From Pseudomonadota bacterium (GTDB lineage Bacteria > Desulfobacterota > Desulfobulbia > Desulfobulbales > Desulfocapsaceae): a DNA stretch of 52,823 bases. The DNA lies in contig JAEYNP010000046.1 in assembly GCA_023412495.1 (NCBI GenBank), positions 1 to 52,823 on the forward strand. The letters run 5' to 3'. Under the pieces are notes generated by a model, which ran no database searches, was not told the DNA's origin, and was given only the letters and a program-made list of their open reading frames with translations. Below, piece after piece: positions 1,093 through 18,828 of the stretch (positions within the stretch are counted from its first letter, which is position 1; each line of letters starts with the position of its first letter). The position numbers and the translations under genes are program-made.

Positions 1093-3618
1093 ATGAAGCA
1101 AGATAAGGCGCCCGGTTCGGTGACGGGAAAACCACTGCTGTATTGGGCCTTCAGCGGCAATCTCAAGCTGCAGCTCATGCTTCTCCTGGTCATTGTCCTC
1201 ATCGTTGCCGCGAGGGTCGTGCCCCTGGAAATGCAGAAGCGGATCATTAACGACGCGATCGCCCTCCAGAACCTGAACGCGCTCTTTGTCTACTGCGCCA
1301 TTTATATAGTGGCAATAACCGTGGCCAGCGCTCTCAAACTGGCGATCAATTATCTGCAGACGGTCATCGGCGAGCGGGCCATGACGGCGATGCGCAAGAG
1401 CCTGTACGACCACATCCTGACTTTGCCATTGAGTTTTTTTCGCACCACCCAGCCCGGCACAGTGGTTTCCTCTCTTATGACCGAACTCAGCACTGCCGGC
1501 AGTTTTGCCGGCATGGCCTTCGCCGTCCCGGTCAGCAATATCCTGACGCTGCTGGCCTTCACCGGCTATCTGGTCTGGCTGAACACCAAACTGGCCCTGG
1601 CGACCCTGATCATCTATCCTGTGGTCGTACTCGTCATCCCGGTCCTGCAGAAGAAAACCAACAAGGCCAACAAGAAGAGGGTCGATCTGGCCCGGGCCAC
1701 ATCAAGCCAGATTGCCGAGTCGATCGCCGGGATCAATGAGGTCCAGGTGCACGGAGCGTACCACCAGGAGAGCGGGAAATTTGCGCAGCTGGCCGAACGC
1801 CTGAAGAAGATCAGGATACGCTGGTCATTGTTCCGCTTCGGGATAAAGACGGCGAACAACTATTTCGTCGGTCTCGGTCCCTTCGTGGTCTTCATTTACG
1901 GCGGTTATCTGATCATGCACGGCCAGCTCGAACTGGGAGCGATGGTCGCTTTCCTCTCCGCCCAGGAAAAGCTCTACGACCCCTGGAAGGAACTCATCGA
2001 ATTCTACCAGGCCTACCAGGACGCCTCGGTCAGCTACAACCGGACCATGAGCAGCTTCGACATGGAGCCGGAGTTTGCAATCGATGCCGCCGACACCCCC
2101 ACCCCCTGCCTGACCGGTCGGCTCGATATCCAGGATCTGGTCTACGATACCCCGGAGGGCCTCAGGCTGCTGAACGGCGTCTCCTTTTCCCTGGCGGCAG
2201 GCGAACACCTGGCCATCGTCGGCTTCTCCGGGGGAGGCAAAACCACCTTGTTCCAATGTCTCGGCAAGATGTTCAACTACACCTCGGGCAGCATCAGGCT
2301 CGACGGCATCGAACTCTCGAACCTGTCGAAACGTACCGCCATCGAGGCTATCGGCTACATATCGCAGAATCCCTTCATCTTCACCGGCACTATCGAGGAG
2401 AACCTGCTGTACGCGCGGAAGGCCGTTGAAGGCAACGAAACAGCCGCGGGCGAGGGAAAGGTCCAGGTCGACCTGGACAGGATGATCCTGGTGCTCCAGC
2501 AGGTCGGGCTGTTCGTCGATGTCATGCGCTTCGGCCTTGACAGCCAGATAGCCTTCGACGACAGGCAGACCATCGAGAAAATCATCCGCATCCGCCGGCG
2601 CTTCCATGAAAATTTCGGAGAAAGGCTGGCCGATTACGTGGAGTTCTACCAGCGCGACACCTACCACGTCAATTCCAGCGTCGCGGAGAATATCCTGTTC
2701 GGCACGAGCAACCGGCCGGAGTTCGACTACCATCTGCTCCCGGACAACAACAGTTTTAGATCCTTCCTCCATTCGGTGGGACTACTGGATCCGCTCCTGA
2801 CACTCAGCGTCGAACTGGCCGGGCAGGCCGTCGATCTTCTGGCCGGTGTCGAAAGGGTCGATATTTTTTTCAAGAACAGCCCGGTGCCGGCCGACCGGCT
2901 CGAGCACTGCGAATTCATCCTCAACCGACTGAAGAGGCATTCACTGTCGACCCTGCCAAGCGGCCAGCAATCCTTTCTCCTGTCGCTGGCCTTGAATTTC
3001 ACCCCGGCTATCCACACCATGGCCAGGATGCCGGTGGACCTCGAGCAGAAGATCCTCGCCGCCCGGCAGGCCTTCCCCGCCTGGGCCGATTCGATCGCCG
3101 CCGACCTCTTCACCTTTTACAGCGATTCCAGCTACATTCACGGTCAATCCATCCTCAACAACATCTTTTTCGGCAGGATCCGGCCGGCTCTCCCCCATGC
3201 CCAGGAAATGATGAATCAAGCCATCATGCACCTGCTGGTGGAGGAAGATTTTCTCGAAGAGGTGGCGGCCATCGGCATGGCATCCCCCGTCGGCAACATG
3301 GGGGATCGGCTGTCGGGAGGTCAGCGGCAGAAGCTGGCCATTGCCAGAGTGCTCCTGAAATCCCCGAAAATAATTCTGATGGACGAGGCCACGTCGGCGC
3401 TGGACAACGCCTCCCAGGCGAGGATTCAGAGGCTGATGACCACCCGCTGGAAGGGCAGGAGAACCGTGGTCGCCGCGGTGCATCGCCTCGACATCATCGA
3501 GGGGTTCGACAAGGTTGCGGTAATGAAGGCGGGAAAACTGGTCGAGTTCGGCACCTACCGGGAACTGTTAGAAAAAAGAGGTACACTCCATGAGCTCATC
3601 TACGGAAGGAAAAAATAA
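1093..3618 (+). CDS. ABC exporter (permease-ATPase fusion) with about 260-residue insertion in the ATPase
   Basis: Membrane exporter half-transporter of 841 residues; typical relatives are 570-620. An N-terminal ABC-exporter membrane domain (about residues 15-310) is followed by an ATPase domain with Walker A GFSGGGKT (377-384), Q-loop Gln425, signature LSGGQ (740-744), Walker B IILMDE (760-765) and switch His797. Between Q-loop and signature there are about 315 residues instead of about 55. The extra segment repeats degenerate echoes of the post-Q-loop motif (AENILFG at 531-537, NNIFFG at 689-694) and of the signature (LPSGQ near 622-626). Start chosen at the second Met because AAGGA precedes it; an ATG at 1075 is the alternative. 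The 3' end overlaps the next gene by 29 bases. The substrate cannot be told; all catalytic motifs are present. Confidence 0.88.
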   Translation: MKQDKAPGSVTGKPLLYWAFSGNLKLQLMLLLVIVLIVAARVVPLEMQKRIINDAIALQNLNALFVYCAIYIVAITVASALKLAINYLQTVIGERAMTAMRKSLYDHILTLPLSFFRTTQPGTVVSSLMTELSTAGSFAGMAFAVPVSNILTLLAFTGYLVWLNTKLALATLIIYPVVVLVIPVLQKKTNKANKKRVDLARATSSQIAESIAGINEVQVHGAYHQESGKFAQLAERLKKIRIRWSLFRFGIKTANNYFVGLGPFVVFIYGGYLIMHGQLELGAMVAFLSAQEKLYDPWKELIEFYQAYQDASVSYNRTMSSFDMEPEFAIDAADTPTPCLTGRLDIQDLVYDTPEGLRLLNGVSFSLAAGEHLAIVGFSGGGKTTLFQCLGKMFNYTSGSIRLDGIELSNLSKRTAIEAIGYISQNPFIFTGTIEENLLYARKAVEGNETAAGEGKVQVDLDRMILVLQQVGLFVDVMRFGLDSQIAFDDRQTIEKIIRIRRRFHENFGERLADYVEFYQRDTYHVNSSVAENILFGTSNRPEFDYHLLPDNNSFRSFLHSVGLLDPLLTLSVELAGQAVDLLAGVERVDIFFKNSPVPADRLEHCEFILNRLKRHSLSTLPSGQQSFLLSLALNFTPAIHTMARMPVDLEQKILAARQAFPAWADSIAADLFTFYSDSSYIHGQSILNNIFFGRIRPALPHAQEMMNQAIMHLLVEEDFLEEVAAIGMASPVGNMGDRLSGGQRQKLAIARVLLKSPKIILMDEATSALDNASQARIQRLMTTRWKGRRTVVAAVHRLDIIEGFDKVAVMKAGKLVEFGTYRELLEKRGTLHELIYGRKK

Positions 3619-4111
3619 CCGAAATCAGGTTCCGGTCATGCAGCAGAACCTGGAACTCTTGAAGGAGCTGAGATTCTTTCAGTACTTCCCGGACAAGTCA
3701 TTGAAGCTGCTTGCATTTCTTGCGAAAAGATCAAAATTGGCGGCGGGCGACCAGCTCTTTGACGAGGGAGAGGACTTCGGCCAGGCATGCCTGCTCCTGT
3801 CAGGCGAGTTGACACTTCAGAAAAGGATCGGCGAAGAGACCAGGATCTTACATCGCTACTATCCAGGGGACTTTCTCGGCTCCTTCTCACTGCTCGGCAC
3901 CCTGCCCTCGCTGTTCACCCTGCGGGCGAGCGCCGACTCCACCGTCCTGACCATCGGGCGCGAACAGTTTTCAAAAATACTTGAACAATTTCCAGAAACG
4001 GGCAAACTGGCGTTGAAGGCTCTGCTCAAGGAGCTGCATCAGTGGGAAAGAAAGAACCTGGCCGAGGCGGACGCCCCCTGCCTCAATCAAGCCGGAGCGA
4101 CGATGTTGTAG
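3590..4111 (+). CDS. Cyclic-nucleotide-binding-domain protein (Crp-like sensor fold, no DNA-binding domain)
   Basis: A 173-residue protein with a single cNMP-binding-like beta-roll (about residues 28-135): a GDQLFDEGEDFGQACLLLSG stretch, then YPGDFLGSFSLLG and TLRASADSTVLTI. In cAMP-binding members the phosphate cassette carries a Glu after FG and an Arg a few residues later; here that part reads LGSFSLLGTLPSLF, so the Glu and Arg are missing and cAMP binding is doubtful. No helix-turn-helix follows. Second gene of the exporter operon, overlapping the exporter by 29 bases and three bases from the RsbW-like gene. Probably a small regulatory or scaffold domain for the exporter or the kinase; that role is inference. 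Confidence 0.8.
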   Translation: MSSSTEGKNNRNQVPVMQQNLELLKELRFFQYFPDKSLKLLAFLAKRSKLAAGDQLFDEGEDFGQACLLLSGELTLQKRIGEETRILHRYYPGDFLGSFSLLGTLPSLFTLRASADSTVLTIGREQFSKILEQFPETGKLALKALLKELHQWERKNLAEADAPCLNQAGATML

Positions 4112-4114
4112 CGT

Positions 4115-4534
4115 ATGGATGTCTCCTTCCAGATAACGAACGATCTGACCGAGCTGAACACCCTGCAGGCGCGACTGCAGCCCCTGCAGAACCACTGGCA
4201 TTTGACCCCGAAAACCCTCGCGGAGATAAATCTGGTCCTGGAGGAGATCGTCGTCAATATCATCGCCCACGGTGATCGTTCCAGGAAAAGCCCGATCACC
4301 ATCACCCTGGCCAAGGAGGGACAGGTACTGACCATGACCGTCATCGACGAGGGCCCCTCCTTCGACCCGACGATCTGTGCTTCCCCGGATATCACCCTTC
4401 CCCTGGAGCACCGAAAGTGCGGAGGACTCGGCCTCCATCTCGTTCGCACCTTCTGTCAGGGATGCAGCTACACGAGGGAAAAAGACAGGAATATTCTTGT
4501 CGTTAAAAGAACATTACCCAAGGAGTGCAGGTAG
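4115..4534 (+). CDS. RsbW/SpoIIAB-like anti-sigma factor serine kinase (HATPase_c)
   Basis: GHKL-type ATPase of 139 residues. The N-box is EINLVLEEIVVNIIAHG (37-53), followed by a G1-type DEGPSFDP (78-85) and a G2-type GGLGLHLV (103-110). Members of this family phosphorylate a STAS-domain antagonist on serine and may sequester a sigma factor or another target. It lies between the cNMP-like protein and the STAS protein, the classic pairing of a partner switch, but no sigma factor or PP2C phosphatase gene is in the window. The target of the switch may therefore be the exporter or an unlinked protein. The family call is secure; the role here is inference. Confidence 0.88.
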   Translation: MDVSFQITNDLTELNTLQARLQPLQNHWHLTPKTLAEINLVLEEIVVNIIAHGDRSRKSPITITLAKEGQVLTMTVIDEGPSFDPTICASPDITLPLEHRKCGGLGLHLVRTFCQGCSYTREKDRNILVVKRTLPKECR

Positions 4535-4548
4535 CCCTGCAAACGACC

Positions 4549-4890
4549 ATGGAAGTAAATATAAACAAGGCGAAGGATGCCGTTATTTTCACCCTGAAGG
4601 GGCGCCTGGATTCGAACACCGCTCCCCAATTCGAAAAACAGCTGCATGACTTTCTTCACAAACCCGGCAGCCACCTCATCTTCGACTTCGAAAACCTCGA
4701 TTATATCTCCAGCGCCGGCCTGCGGGTGATTCTGAATACCGCCAAGGCGTACAACACCGGACCCTACCGTTTCGCCGCCTGCGCCATGCAGGAACATGTC
4801 CAGGAAGTATTCGAAATCTCGGGTTTCGACACCTTTATTGCCATTTACCGTTCGGTGGACGAGTCGCTGGCATCCCTTGCAAAGGCGTGA
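4549..4890 (+). CDS. STAS-domain anti-anti-sigma factor
   Basis: A 113-residue STAS protein and probable substrate of the adjacent RsbW-like kinase. After the first strands (MEVNINKAKDAVIFTLKGRL) comes LDYISSAGLRVIL, where Ser54 or Ser55 is at the position that SpoIIAB/RsbW kinases phosphorylate. The C-terminal half ends in the usual helix around EVFEISGF. ATG 4549 matches the family N-terminus; a GTG at 4525 would overlap the kinase gene by 10 bases and add eight residues, with AAGGAG too close to it. Last gene of the four-gene operon, followed by a GC-rich hairpin. Confidence 0.88.
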   Translation: MEVNINKAKDAVIFTLKGRLDSNTAPQFEKQLHDFLHKPGSHLIFDFENLDYISSAGLRVILNTAKAYNTGPYRFAACAMQEHVQEVFEISGFDTFIAIYRSVDESLASLAKA

Positions 4891-16647: not shown

Positions 16648-17097
16648 TCACGTATGCGGGGCGAAATAGAGCTTCTCGAATTCCTGCAGAAGCCTTTTCA
16701 ATTCCGTTACCTGATTCAAGTCGACCGTCTGTTTGGCCTTCATGGCGGCAATGAGCATCTGGTGCAGCAGGGTCAGCATTTCCTGGTAATTCTTCTGGTC
16801 CGGTTTGATCCGTTGGGTGAGGAAGTACTGCGCGACCACATCCTGCAGCTGATTGGCATGGTCCTCCTTGTTCATGACCCAGCGAACCTGTTGATTGGTG
16901 TTGCGTTGTTCGACCTGTTCGAGGTCCTTGATCATGTTCATCGATTTTTCGATGGTGGCGATATGCTCGGCAAGCAGTTTGATACGCATGGCATCGTCAT
17001 AGATGCCGCAGGGGATTTCACAGTGGCCAGCCGCCTTACCGACCACGAAAAGCAGCGTCAGAAACGCGAGGGCCGTCTGAACAATACGGATTTTCAT
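16648..17097 (-). CDS. sodN: Nickel superoxide dismutase with Sec signal peptide
   Basis: Dismutates superoxide at a mononuclear nickel site. Residues 25-34 read HCEIPCGIYD, which is the nickel hook HCxxPCGxYD of NiSOD: His25, Cys26 and Cys30 would be His1, Cys2 and Cys6 of the mature enzyme. Residues 1-24 form a signal peptide (MKIRIV, hydrophobic core, KAAG), so cleavage after Gly24 would expose His1 directly. The remaining 115 residues are helical with the NiSOD-like MNKEDHANQLQDVVAQYF segment. ATG 17097 follows AAGGAGG; total length is 149. No sodX-type protease gene is adjacent, which fits maturation by signal peptidase in the periplasm. Confidence 0.88.
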   Translation of the reverse strand: MKIRIVQTALAFLTLLFVVGKAAGHCEIPCGIYDDAMRIKLLAEHIATIEKSMNMIKDLEQVEQRNTNQQVRWVMNKEDHANQLQDVVAQYFLTQRIKPDQKNYQEMLTLLHQMLIAAMKAKQTVDLNQVTELKRLLQEFEKLYFAPHT

Positions 17098-17279
17098 AAA
17101 CAACCTCCTTGGGGATTATGGATGAAAAAACCTGGTACTGCCGCCTTATGCCGTGCAACGTGCCATCTGATACACCGATGGTGTTAACGATACATAGTAT
17201 TTGCGGTTAAACATTAAAGCAAGGGCGCTTCAAAGGGAGACGGAGGGAGGTCGCCCGCCGGAGAAATCGGCGGAGGAAT

Positions 17280-17756
17280 TCATCTGCGCGAGGAGATCTT
17301 CCGTTCCAGGGCCGAGGCCGTATGCAGGATGATGACGGCGAGGAGCGTGACCCCGGCCACCAGGATATACTGAGACAAGGCCACGGCAATGCCGATGACA
17401 CAGCAGATGAGGATGGAAGCGGCCGTGGTCAGGCCTTCGATGGCGTCATCCTTGCCCGAGCGGAAGATTGTCCCGGCACCGAGAAAACTGATGCCGGTAA
17501 TGATGGCTTCGACCAGTCGCACCGGATCGGCACGAAGATTTTCGTCGTAGGGCTGGGAGGAGAAATGTTCGATCAGCGTGTCGCCGAGTCCGACCAGCAT
17601 GGAGGAGGCGCCGGCGACCAGCATGAGGGTACGGAGTCCTGCGGGCTTCCTCGCCAGTTCACGTTCCAGTCCGATCAGGCCCCCGAAGATCATGGCTATG
17701 AAGACATTGAGAAGAATAGCGAGCTGAGGATTGCCCTGCAGGAAGGGTGTTTCCAT
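17280..17756 (-). CDS. MgtC/SapB-family membrane protein
   Basis: A 158-residue integral membrane protein. It has the MgtC hallmark LIGLERELARKPAGLRTLMLV (about 27-47) followed by GISFLGAGTIFRS (about 90-102) and GLTTAASI (about 111-118). Four to five hydrophobic helices are evident. Family members are linked to Mg2+ limitation and acid tolerance, partly through control of the F-ATPase; the cytoplasmic ACT-like tail of Salmonella MgtC is absent here. No obvious ribosome site precedes ATG 17756. It stands alone between the stress genes sodN and csbD, about 180 bases upstream of the sodN promoter region. Confidence 0.88.
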   Translation of the reverse strand: METPFLQGNPQLAILLNVFIAMIFGGLIGLERELARKPAGLRTLMLVAGASSMLVGLGDTLIEHFSSQPYDENLRADPVRLVEAIITGISFLGAGTIFRSGKDDAIEGLTTAASILICCVIGIAVALSQYILVAGVTLLAVIILHTASALERKISSRR

Positions 17757-17903
17757 AGAGTTGGAAGAGAATGGTTTTCTTATGAAAACGAAAGTTTCGA
17801 TATTGCACTTGGGGGGGGACGAACAGGACAGCCGGAAATTCCCACCGGCTCCACCTGCCGTCCCCTCATGCTAATGATAAGAGATCAGGACAATGTAGAG
17901 CGA

Positions 17904-18104
17904 TCATTCATGCCTGGTGAAGAATTCATCCGCTTCCTTTTCCGCCCTGTCTCTTTCATATCCGTATTTTTCCTGCAACTTTCCGACGATCTTATCGTAG
18001 TTGCCGTTGATTTCATCCAGTTCGTCATCGGTGAGCTTTCCCCATTGGATTTTAACATCACCTTTAAGCTGATTCCATTTGCCTTTAATTATATCCCTGT
18101 TCAT
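17904..18104 (-). CDS. CsbD-like general stress protein
   Basis: A small hydrophilic protein of 66 residues with the CsbD pattern: MNRDIIKGKWNQLKGDVK, WGKLTDDELDEINGN and LQEKYGYERDRAEKE. Members accumulate under stress in many bacteria, but their molecular role is unknown. AAGGAG seven bases before ATG 18104 fixes the start. It is followed on the same strand by the mgtC-like gene after about 150 bases. Confidence 0.9.
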   Translation of the reverse strand: MNRDIIKGKWNQLKGDVKIQWGKLTDDELDEINGNYDKIVGKLQEKYGYERDRAEKEADEFFTRHE

Positions 18105-18171
18105 ACCAACGCTCCTTTAGTGCTTAAGAGATTCGTTCTTATTTGTTGAAGAGAATTTCAAAAGAAATTCG

Positions 18172-18828
18172 TCATTGCTGCCAGCCGTGCTCACCGCGAA
18201 GGGGAACGAACTGGCATTTCAGCAATTGTTCCTCCCAAAAGCCGTCCGGCCGGCGCACGATCTTCTTCAGCGCCTGCGAGAGGCTGTCCCCCACGGGAAT
18301 AACCAGCCTGCCGCCCTCGGCAAGCTGCTCAAGGAGAGGACGGGGAAGATGCGGCGCCCCGGCGGTGACAATGATCGCATCGTAGGGTTCATGCTCGGGC
18401 CAGCCCAGGGTGCCGTCGGCAGTCTTGGCCGAAACATTCCGATAACCGAGCCTCGCCAGCAGCTCGCTTGCCGATTCCATGAGTTCAGGCAGTAATTCCA
18501 GGGTATGCACGCCGTGGCAGAGTTCGGCCAGGACCGCCGTCTGATAACCGCTTCCGGTCCCTATCTCCAGAACTTTGTCGTTCGGGTCAAGTTCGAGCGA
18601 TTCCGTCATCAACGCCACGATATACGGTTGCGAGATCGTCTGCTGCATGTCGATGGGCAGCGGGCGATCTGCGTAGGCCATTGCCTCCCACCTGGAGGGG
18701 ACGAAGAGATGCCTCGGGATCTGACGCATTGCCGTCAGAACCTTCTTATTACGTATACCTCGACCGACGAGTTGTTCATTCACCATTTTTTCCCGTTCGA
18801 GGGACCAGTCTATTGTCATTATCGTCAT
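18172..18828 (-). CDS. pcm: Protein-L-isoaspartate O-methyltransferase
   Basis: Methylates L-isoaspartyl residues with S-adenosylmethionine to start repair of aged proteins. The protein has 218 residues, the normal length. Motifs: VPSRWEAMAYADRPLPI, QTISQPYIVALM, then SAM-binding VLEIGTGSGYQTAVLAEL and the post-I VHTLELLPEL, and a motif-II-like YDAIIVTAGAPHLP. AAGGAG nine bases before ATG 18828 decides the start over further upstream Met codons. It is upstream of csbD on the same strand, with 67 bases between them. Confidence 0.93.
   Translation of the reverse strand: MTIMTIDWSLEREKMVNEQLVGRGIRNKKVLTAMRQIPRHLFVPSRWEAMAYADRPLPIDMQQTISQPYIVALMTESLELDPNDKVLEIGTGSGYQTAVLAELCHGVHTLELLPELMESASELLARLGYRNVSAKTADGTLGWPEHEPYDAIIVTAGAPHLPRPLLEQLAEGGRLVIPVGDSLSQALKKIVRRPDGFWEEQLLKCQFVPLRGEHGWQQ

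Follow-up and report, generated by a model that had tools for sequence, protein, structure and literature searches.

The 52.8-kb window analyzed here (contig JAEYNP010000046.1, positions 1 to 52,823, from a member of the Desulfocapsaceae) carries four tightly packed open reading frames (ORFs), all on the + strand. They encode an ATP-binding cassette (ABC) exporter, a protein resembling cyclic-nucleotide (cNMP)-binding domains, a serine kinase of the RsbW/SpoIIAB type and a protein made up of a STAS domain only. The linkage of these parts is no local accident: kinase and STAS genes, in many cases together with a gene for a PP2C phosphatase, accompany the same exporter family in two bacterial classes. 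We give slightly better than even odds (about 0.52) to the reading that the cluster is a partner-switching module providing post-translational control of the exporter complex. As far as we have seen, the recurrent combination, an adjoining fused phosphatase-kinase and a triplicated helical element in the exporter are new, and the individual parts all belong to known types. A literature search, which reached a minority of subscription papers and no bioRxiv preprints, recognized no description of this linkage.

Linkage of switch genes to one exporter family

When genome contigs were scanned with the expanded region of the exporter ATPase domain, described below, 42 loci were obtained. The region was detected in 77 of 257 genomes from the class of the Desulfosediminicola locus (clades I and II, defined below, both counted) and in 81 of 199 genomes drawn from the class of the Halodesulfovibrio locus; we designate the classes by these loci, their GTDB class names being presumed. 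Genomic context was taken for 40 of the 81 matching genomes of the latter class and for 14 + 16 stretches from the former. Altogether, 112 loci were selected by the exporter alone, with the neighbors ignored, and these were reduced to 107 at 95% identity; with a 190-aa fragment (L040) left out, 106 loci and the window entered a FastTree tree, in which 27 of 104 inner branches are open. In the tree, the window groups with 86 loci in clade I, and the other 20 loci form clade II. Within the tree, the exporter closest to that of the window (88% identity) is that of locus L001, in a metagenome bin assigned to Desulfobacterales. The supposition that the arrangement is confined to Desulfobulbales was refuted by the matches in the class of the Halodesulfovibrio locus. 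The counts that follow refer to full-flank loci, which have at least 4.5 kb on each side of the exporter (63 in clade I, 16 in clade II), and "near" denotes a distance of up to 4.5 kb from it.

In clade I, a STAS gene is found near the exporter in 57 of 63 loci, a kinase gene in 53, a PP2C gene in 36 and all three in 36; at least one module part is present in 57 loci and a cNMP gene in 45. In clade II, 14 of 16 loci have the cNMP gene, and STAS, kinase and PP2C genes are near the exporter in none. Within the 63 clade I loci, the zone up to 4.5 kb amounts to 567 kb, with 57 genes for STAS, 54 for the kinase and 39 for PP2C; the zone beyond it amounts to 339 kb, with no STAS gene, no kinase gene and a single PP2C gene. 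PP2C genes number 2-8 per genome, or 72 in 13 genomes (~67 Mb); therefore, fewer than one would be expected near the exporters, compared with the 36 of 63 loci in which one was observed. The linkage holds down to ~40% exporter identity and across both classes. The original prediction turned on whether the four-gene order recurs in other genomes. The linkage of the parts is indeed strong, but the exact order of exporter, cNMP, kinase and STAS genes without a nearby PP2C gene is seen in only 10 of the 63 loci (window not counted). The prediction had also remarked on the absence of a PP2C phosphatase, which does not hold for the family; the phosphatase of the relatives was missing from that account, as were ~260 extra residues in the ATPase domain.

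The clade I loci fall into 18 arrangements, 17 of which contain a module part, and these require at least 21 changes (at least 22 across the 79 loci of both clades). Among the 53 loci in which a STAS and a kinase gene occur together, the two are divergent and upstream of the exporter in 33, co-directional and downstream in 18, co-directional and upstream in 1 and split in 1. Their placement with respect to the exporter (side or strand) changed at least three times on the tree, and the linkage was kept. A STAS gene without a kinase gene is found near the exporter in 4 of 63 loci, and a kinase gene without a STAS gene in none. In one of these four, genome G008 (L024), the contig that has STAS near the exporter also carries a kinase and a PP2C gene ~16 kb away. 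This genome carries three expanded exporters (C33, C12 and C5), of which C33 is the one whose neighborhood was examined.

A Pfam scan of candidate phosphatases from the relatives identified the SpoIIE domain in 13 of 13 and HAMP in 11; the sensor was Cache-type in 4, MASE10 in 2 and GAF in 1, with none named in 6. Overall, the SpoIIE domain was present in all 15 proteins tested, and the conserved PP2C aspartates are retained in 44-47 of 47. The PP2C gene adjoins or overlaps the exporter ORF in several loci and elsewhere is divergent, alongside the kinase and STAS genes. Ten of the 63 loci, all from the class of the Halodesulfovibrio locus, have PP2C and kinase in one ORF beside STAS and the exporter, and both of the fused proteins tested with Pfam have the architecture sensor-HAMP-SpoIIE-HATPase_c_2. 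All 18 loci that lack the cNMP gene have a PP2C gene near the exporter, versus 18 of the 45 loci with it, an association that is not significant when descent is allowed for (independent pairs).

The functional residues of the switch proteins are conserved. The N, G1 and G2 boxes of the kinase are kept in its relatives (Glu44, Asn48 and Gly103/104/106 in 69 of 69, Asp78 in 68 of 69), and Ser55 of the STAS protein (codon 4711-4713) is present in 74 of 74. By sequence, SpoIIAB and SpoIIAA are the top-scoring solved relatives of the kinase and the STAS protein, and Ser55 aligns with a serine of SpoIIAA. We take this serine to be the phosphorylation site, in line with the phosphoserines of SpoIIAA and RsbV. 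The cNMP-like protein of the window matches PF00027 and lacks the glutamate of the phosphate-binding cassette expected in a cyclic-nucleotide receptor. This glutamate is found in 0 of 59 nonredundant clade I proteins, in 16 of 17 clade II proteins and in 4 of 4 distant relatives. Two of the latter are neighbors of exporters on rhizobial plasmids (L173 and L174), and two (P0290 and P0291) are fused C-terminally to exporters, which supports the cNMP protein being an exporter subunit. With the exporters P0291 and P0286 as queries, 251 and 262 plasmid records were matched, respectively, and the neighborhoods in two of these records were examined. In L174, adenylate/guanylate cyclase genes (1-1452 and 16883-18223) flank the Mesorhizobium exporter-cNMP pair, which is compatible with a cyclic-nucleotide input.

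In clade II (L086-L102), many exporters sit with genes for the cNMP protein, MacB/FtsX-like proteins, DUF6785/DUF6784, PqqD, a periplasmic protein and two others (a membrane protein of 652 aa and a protein of ~290 aa), and with no switch module; PqqD, DUF6785 and MacB-like neighbors, being mostly from this clade, were rejected as defining parts. A small group of expanded exporters (L095, L096 and L097) has neither cNMP nor switch genes nearby. In L031, a PilZ-domain gene (997-1329) is located between STAS and the exporter, which suggests a cyclic di-GMP input, and in L032 an ORF of similar length occupies this place; PilZ, a neighbor in L031/L032 (the domain was identified in the one that was scanned, L031), was likewise rejected as a defining part.

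The window locus and the enlarged ATPase domain

The packing described in the original prediction, with an overlap or gaps of 3-14 bases, agrees with the coordinates on the + strand (Table 1). The ATG of the cNMP gene (3590) is inside the exporter ORF, whose stop is at 3618; the cNMP stop (4111) is followed after 3 bases by the kinase ATG (4115); and 14 bases separate the kinase stop (4534) from the STAS ATG (4549). The exporter has an alternative start at 1075, and an alternative GTG start of STAS at 4525 would overlap the kinase gene. The alignment of STAS relatives begins at the residue encoded at 4549; therefore, the numbering of Ser54/Ser55 used previously holds. The earlier family assignments are borne out by matches to PF00664, PF00005, PF00027, PF13581 and PF01740, each above the curated cut-off. 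The next gene after the cluster, on the opposite strand, encodes SelD. Promoter and terminator scans gave a signal no higher than that of shuffled sequences.

Table 1. Coordinates of the cluster genes and of exporter elements in the window
Feature	Position	Strand	Details
ABC exporter (MsbA/P-gp-like half transporter, expanded nucleotide-binding domain)	1093..3618	+	841 aa; PF00664 + PF00005
Walker A (residues 377-384 of 841)	2221..2244	+	GxxGxGK[ST] in 141/142 family members
Helical-subdomain element, copy 1, with Q-loop Gln425	2335..2541	+	matches copy 2 (89% profile probability)
Helical-subdomain element, copy 2, Arg at Gln425-aligned position	2623..2814	+	matches copy 3 (96% profile probability)
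Helical-subdomain element, copy 3, continuing into signature motif, Asp at Gln425-aligned position	3097..3282	+	model and profile match
ABC signature LSGGQ	3310..3324	+	142/142 family members; after copy 3
cNMP-binding-like accessory protein	3590..4111	+	173 aa; PF00027, 51 bits; phosphate-binding-cassette glutamate absent
RsbW/SpoIIAB-type serine kinase (HATPase_c_2)	4115..4534	+	139 aa; PF13581, 80.5 bits
STAS-only protein (anti-anti-sigma type)	4549..4890	+	113 aa; PF01740, 66 bits; TIGR00377 over cut-off

The best NCBIfam match of the exporter is MsbA, under the cut-off of that model. The ordinary ATPase-domain match stops after the Q-loop and restarts before the signature; this stretch has 281 residues, compared with 22 in the P-glycoprotein alignment, and the exporter therefore has ~260 residues beyond the usual length of this stretch. 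The expanded region is matched over 99-100% of its length by the 120 homologs listed (of 492 at E <= 1e-3), and with a distant member as the query, the whole region is matched by the 120 listed of 430. An AlphaFold2 model of the exporter, built with 142 aligned members, has a mean predicted local distance difference test (pLDDT) score of 82.8; its 10-residue blocks score 82-94 across residues 461-740 and 58-74 at 441-460. The secondary structure of this model suggests one unit that is repeated three times, and profile-profile comparison backs the repeat (probabilities: copy 2-copy 3 96%, with a nominal E of 3.7e-9; copy 1-copy 2 89%; copy 1-copy 3 43%). Thus, the single helical subdomain expected between the Q-loop and the signature of an MsbA-like protein is replaced by an element present three times. 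Gln425 of copy 1 is found in 142 of 142 members, whereas a glutamine occupies the aligned position in 29 of 142 for copy 2 and in 12 of 142 for copy 3. The Walker B pattern is present in 136 and the H-loop pattern in 141 of the 142 members, in which the transmembrane domain (TMD) and the nucleotide-binding domain are fused. Overall, the exporter has the appearance of an active ATPase that carries two extra helical-subdomain elements. In a Foldseek search with the exporter model as a whole as the query, the 50 matches listed of 1,431 are ordinary ABC exporters. No exporter relative was detected in viral contigs with a single-sequence query, which reaches close relatives only.

Several family members stand apart. 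P0286, P0290 and P0291 are distant relatives with the three-element ATPase domain in which, as judged by eye, Walker A is degenerate and Walker B altered; the cNMP domains fused to P0290 and P0291 have an intact cassette. The exporter of L171 is split over two overlapping frames (672 and 163 aa), by a frameshift or a sequencing error. In L002 and L015, the expanded region is found on two contigs of one metagenome bin, due to a duplication or an assembly artifact.

Proposed action of the module and alternative readings

In the reading that we prefer, the cluster provides the cytoplasmic side of a partner-switching module that serves the exporter. A PP2C phosphatase, usually membrane-bound (encoded near the exporter in many relatives, and elsewhere or absent in the organism of the window), and the kinase would together set the phosphorylation of STAS Ser55. 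The STAS/kinase pair would then act on the exporter and its cNMP-like subunit to switch transport on or off, and the enlarged ATPase domain would be the probable site of this action. We infer the phosphorylation, the contact with the exporter and the nature of the substrate; control may run in either direction, with STAS as the effector, as with MlaB on MlaF, or with the kinase as an inhibitor relieved by STAS. STAS is favored as the exporter contact because of the MlaB-MlaF precedent and because it occurs without the kinase in four loci and the reverse is never seen. The operons of clade II, with MacB/FtsX-like, DUF6785 and PqqD genes, and glycosyltransferase genes near two rhizobial copies hint that the exported substrate may be an envelope component. 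A more detailed scheme, which we offer only tentatively, is that the phosphorylation of STAS is governed by a GHKL kinase together with a sensor PP2C and that STAS docks on the triplicated helical subdomain, so that partner switching gates the exporter directly; this input would have replaced an older cyclic-nucleotide input through the cNMP subunit. That subunit would have lost its ligand residue first and would later have been dropped in lineages where the phosphatase stays within 4.5 kb.

Several observations weigh against control of the exporter by the module. The original prediction was correct that the window has no phosphatase: a six-frame profile search found no PP2C domain anywhere in its 52.8 kb. 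Six loci of one clade (L143, L145, L146, L147, L150 and L172) have the exporter and the cNMP gene with no module part near them, and their genomes have 3-4 PF13581 genes at E <= 1e-9, none of them at the exporter. Most of the changes in arrangement consist of a single part being gained, lost, fused or moved (PP2C in the last case), and the STAS/kinase pair was relocated only about three times. The loss of the cNMP glutamate tracks the clade and not, case by case, the presence of the module. In a partial-distance test, there was no coupling between STAS and the exporter insert (-0.13), so that placement of STAS on the insert by co-evolution was not borne out; the values for STAS and the TMD (0.26) and for the kinase and the ATPase core (0.37) are both weak. 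Lastly, the T52A variant of E. coli MlaB, the precedent discussed below, was non-functional with low ATPase activity and yet still bound, and its authors find simple phosphoregulation hard to reconcile with this (PMC7367683).

A variant of the preferred reading, which we consider doubtful, reverses the roles: the kinase would inhibit the exporter through the ATPase core, and STAS would merely relieve the inhibition. On the one hand, this is the canonical logic of SpoIIAB and RsbW, and the kinase distances track those of the ATPase core more than the rest of the exporter accounts for (the partial r of 0.37 given above). On the other hand, it is STAS, never the kinase, that is found alone near the exporter, although in G008 a kinase gene is not far away, and STAS is the contacting partner in the Mla precedent (PMC7367683). 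That the genes stay together by descent alone is very improbable. The close relatives L001 and L002 do share the same gene order, and the few relocations of the STAS/kinase pair would fit such an explanation; however, the linkage outlasted those moves as well as the divergence of the exporters in two classes, and farther from the exporter these loci have almost no module genes.

The remaining alternatives place the target outside the exporter. In its classic role, the kinase would act as the anti-sigma factor of a sigma factor whose gene is at another site, with the exporter merely co-transcribed or a target gene. SpoIIAB and SpoIIAA being the best-scoring solved relatives favors such a role, and the 13 genomes of relatives searched for sigma factors (a set apart from the window's own genome) offer 3-10 Sigma70_r2 genes each as potential targets in trans. 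However, no Sigma70_r2 match was found inside the exporter locus in any of the 13, and no SigB/F/G-class sigma factor scored over the cut-off in any of them, while one of 14 control genomes has one. In 5 of the 13 (G004, G005, G006, G007 and G011), the module kinase is the sole PF13581 match below E 1e-8. A sigma factor target in trans is therefore less likely, and with the module tied to one exporter family across two classes, we regard the classic role as quite improbable. It is also unlikely, if somewhat less so, that the module targets another non-sigma process (secretion, biofilm or envelope) and that the exporter handles a signal or product, so that the coupling is physiological and not physical. 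SypA and BtrV, STAS-only proteins with non-sigma or unknown targets (PMC8256260), provide precedents, and the PilZ gene in the L031 cluster points the same way; against this, no non-module protein family recurs in more than 12 of the first 43 neighborhoods (42 loci and the window).

Relation to known systems

The closest parallel is MlaFEDB of E. coli, in which MlaB, a single-domain STAS protein, is encoded with and acts on an ABC ATPase, with the acceptor position near the center of the contact (PMC7367683). A STAS protein is already known to contact and regulate an ABC ATPase, and the phosphomimetic T52E substitution in MlaB lowered the binding of MlaF (PMC7367683). A STAS-only protein encoded with an ABC protein is likewise what we find in 57 of the 63 clade I loci. 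However, Mla is a lipid transporter in which the permease and the MCE protein are separate and for which no cognate kinase or phosphatase is known, and MlaF is a separate ATPase, whereas here a fused PF00664-PF00005 exporter is linked to a kinase and often, among the relatives, to a PP2C phosphatase.

The switch proteins themselves belong to the kinase, STAS and PP2C families of the Rsb and SpoIIA systems (RsbW-RsbV-RsbU and SpoIIAB-SpoIIAA-SpoIIE), with the functional residues conserved. They differ from these systems in that no sigma factor is linked in the 13 genomes and the linkage is to one ABC exporter family instead. Partner switching with non-sigma or unknown outputs is exemplified by SypE-SypA of Vibrio fischeri and BtrU/V/W of Bordetella (PMC8256260). 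SypE is a dual kinase/phosphatase, and the fused protein here combines sensor, HAMP, PP2C and kinase; the accessible part of the source mentions no ABC exporter with either system (PMC8256260). As for the exporter, it shares the transmembrane domain and the ATPase motifs with MsbA, Sav1866 and P-glycoprotein and differs from them in its extra residues and triplicated element. HetC is also an ABC exporter with a cNMP-type domain; however, as far as it is described in the accessible part of PMC10986499, HetC contains a peptidase, whereas here the cNMP protein is a separate subunit that lacks the ligand glutamate or, in the distant P0290 and P0291, is fused C-terminally to the exporter.

How active MlaB is controlled is left as an open question in the MlaFB paper, where phosphorylation is raised and qualified (PMC7367683). 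With a kinase, a STAS protein, a transporter and often a phosphatase available as one set, this question becomes testable with purified parts. If the preferred reading is true, a transporter would join the outputs of partner switching. The linkage would also draw attention to a widespread and apparently unexamined exporter family that many sulfate reducers and related bacteria carry.

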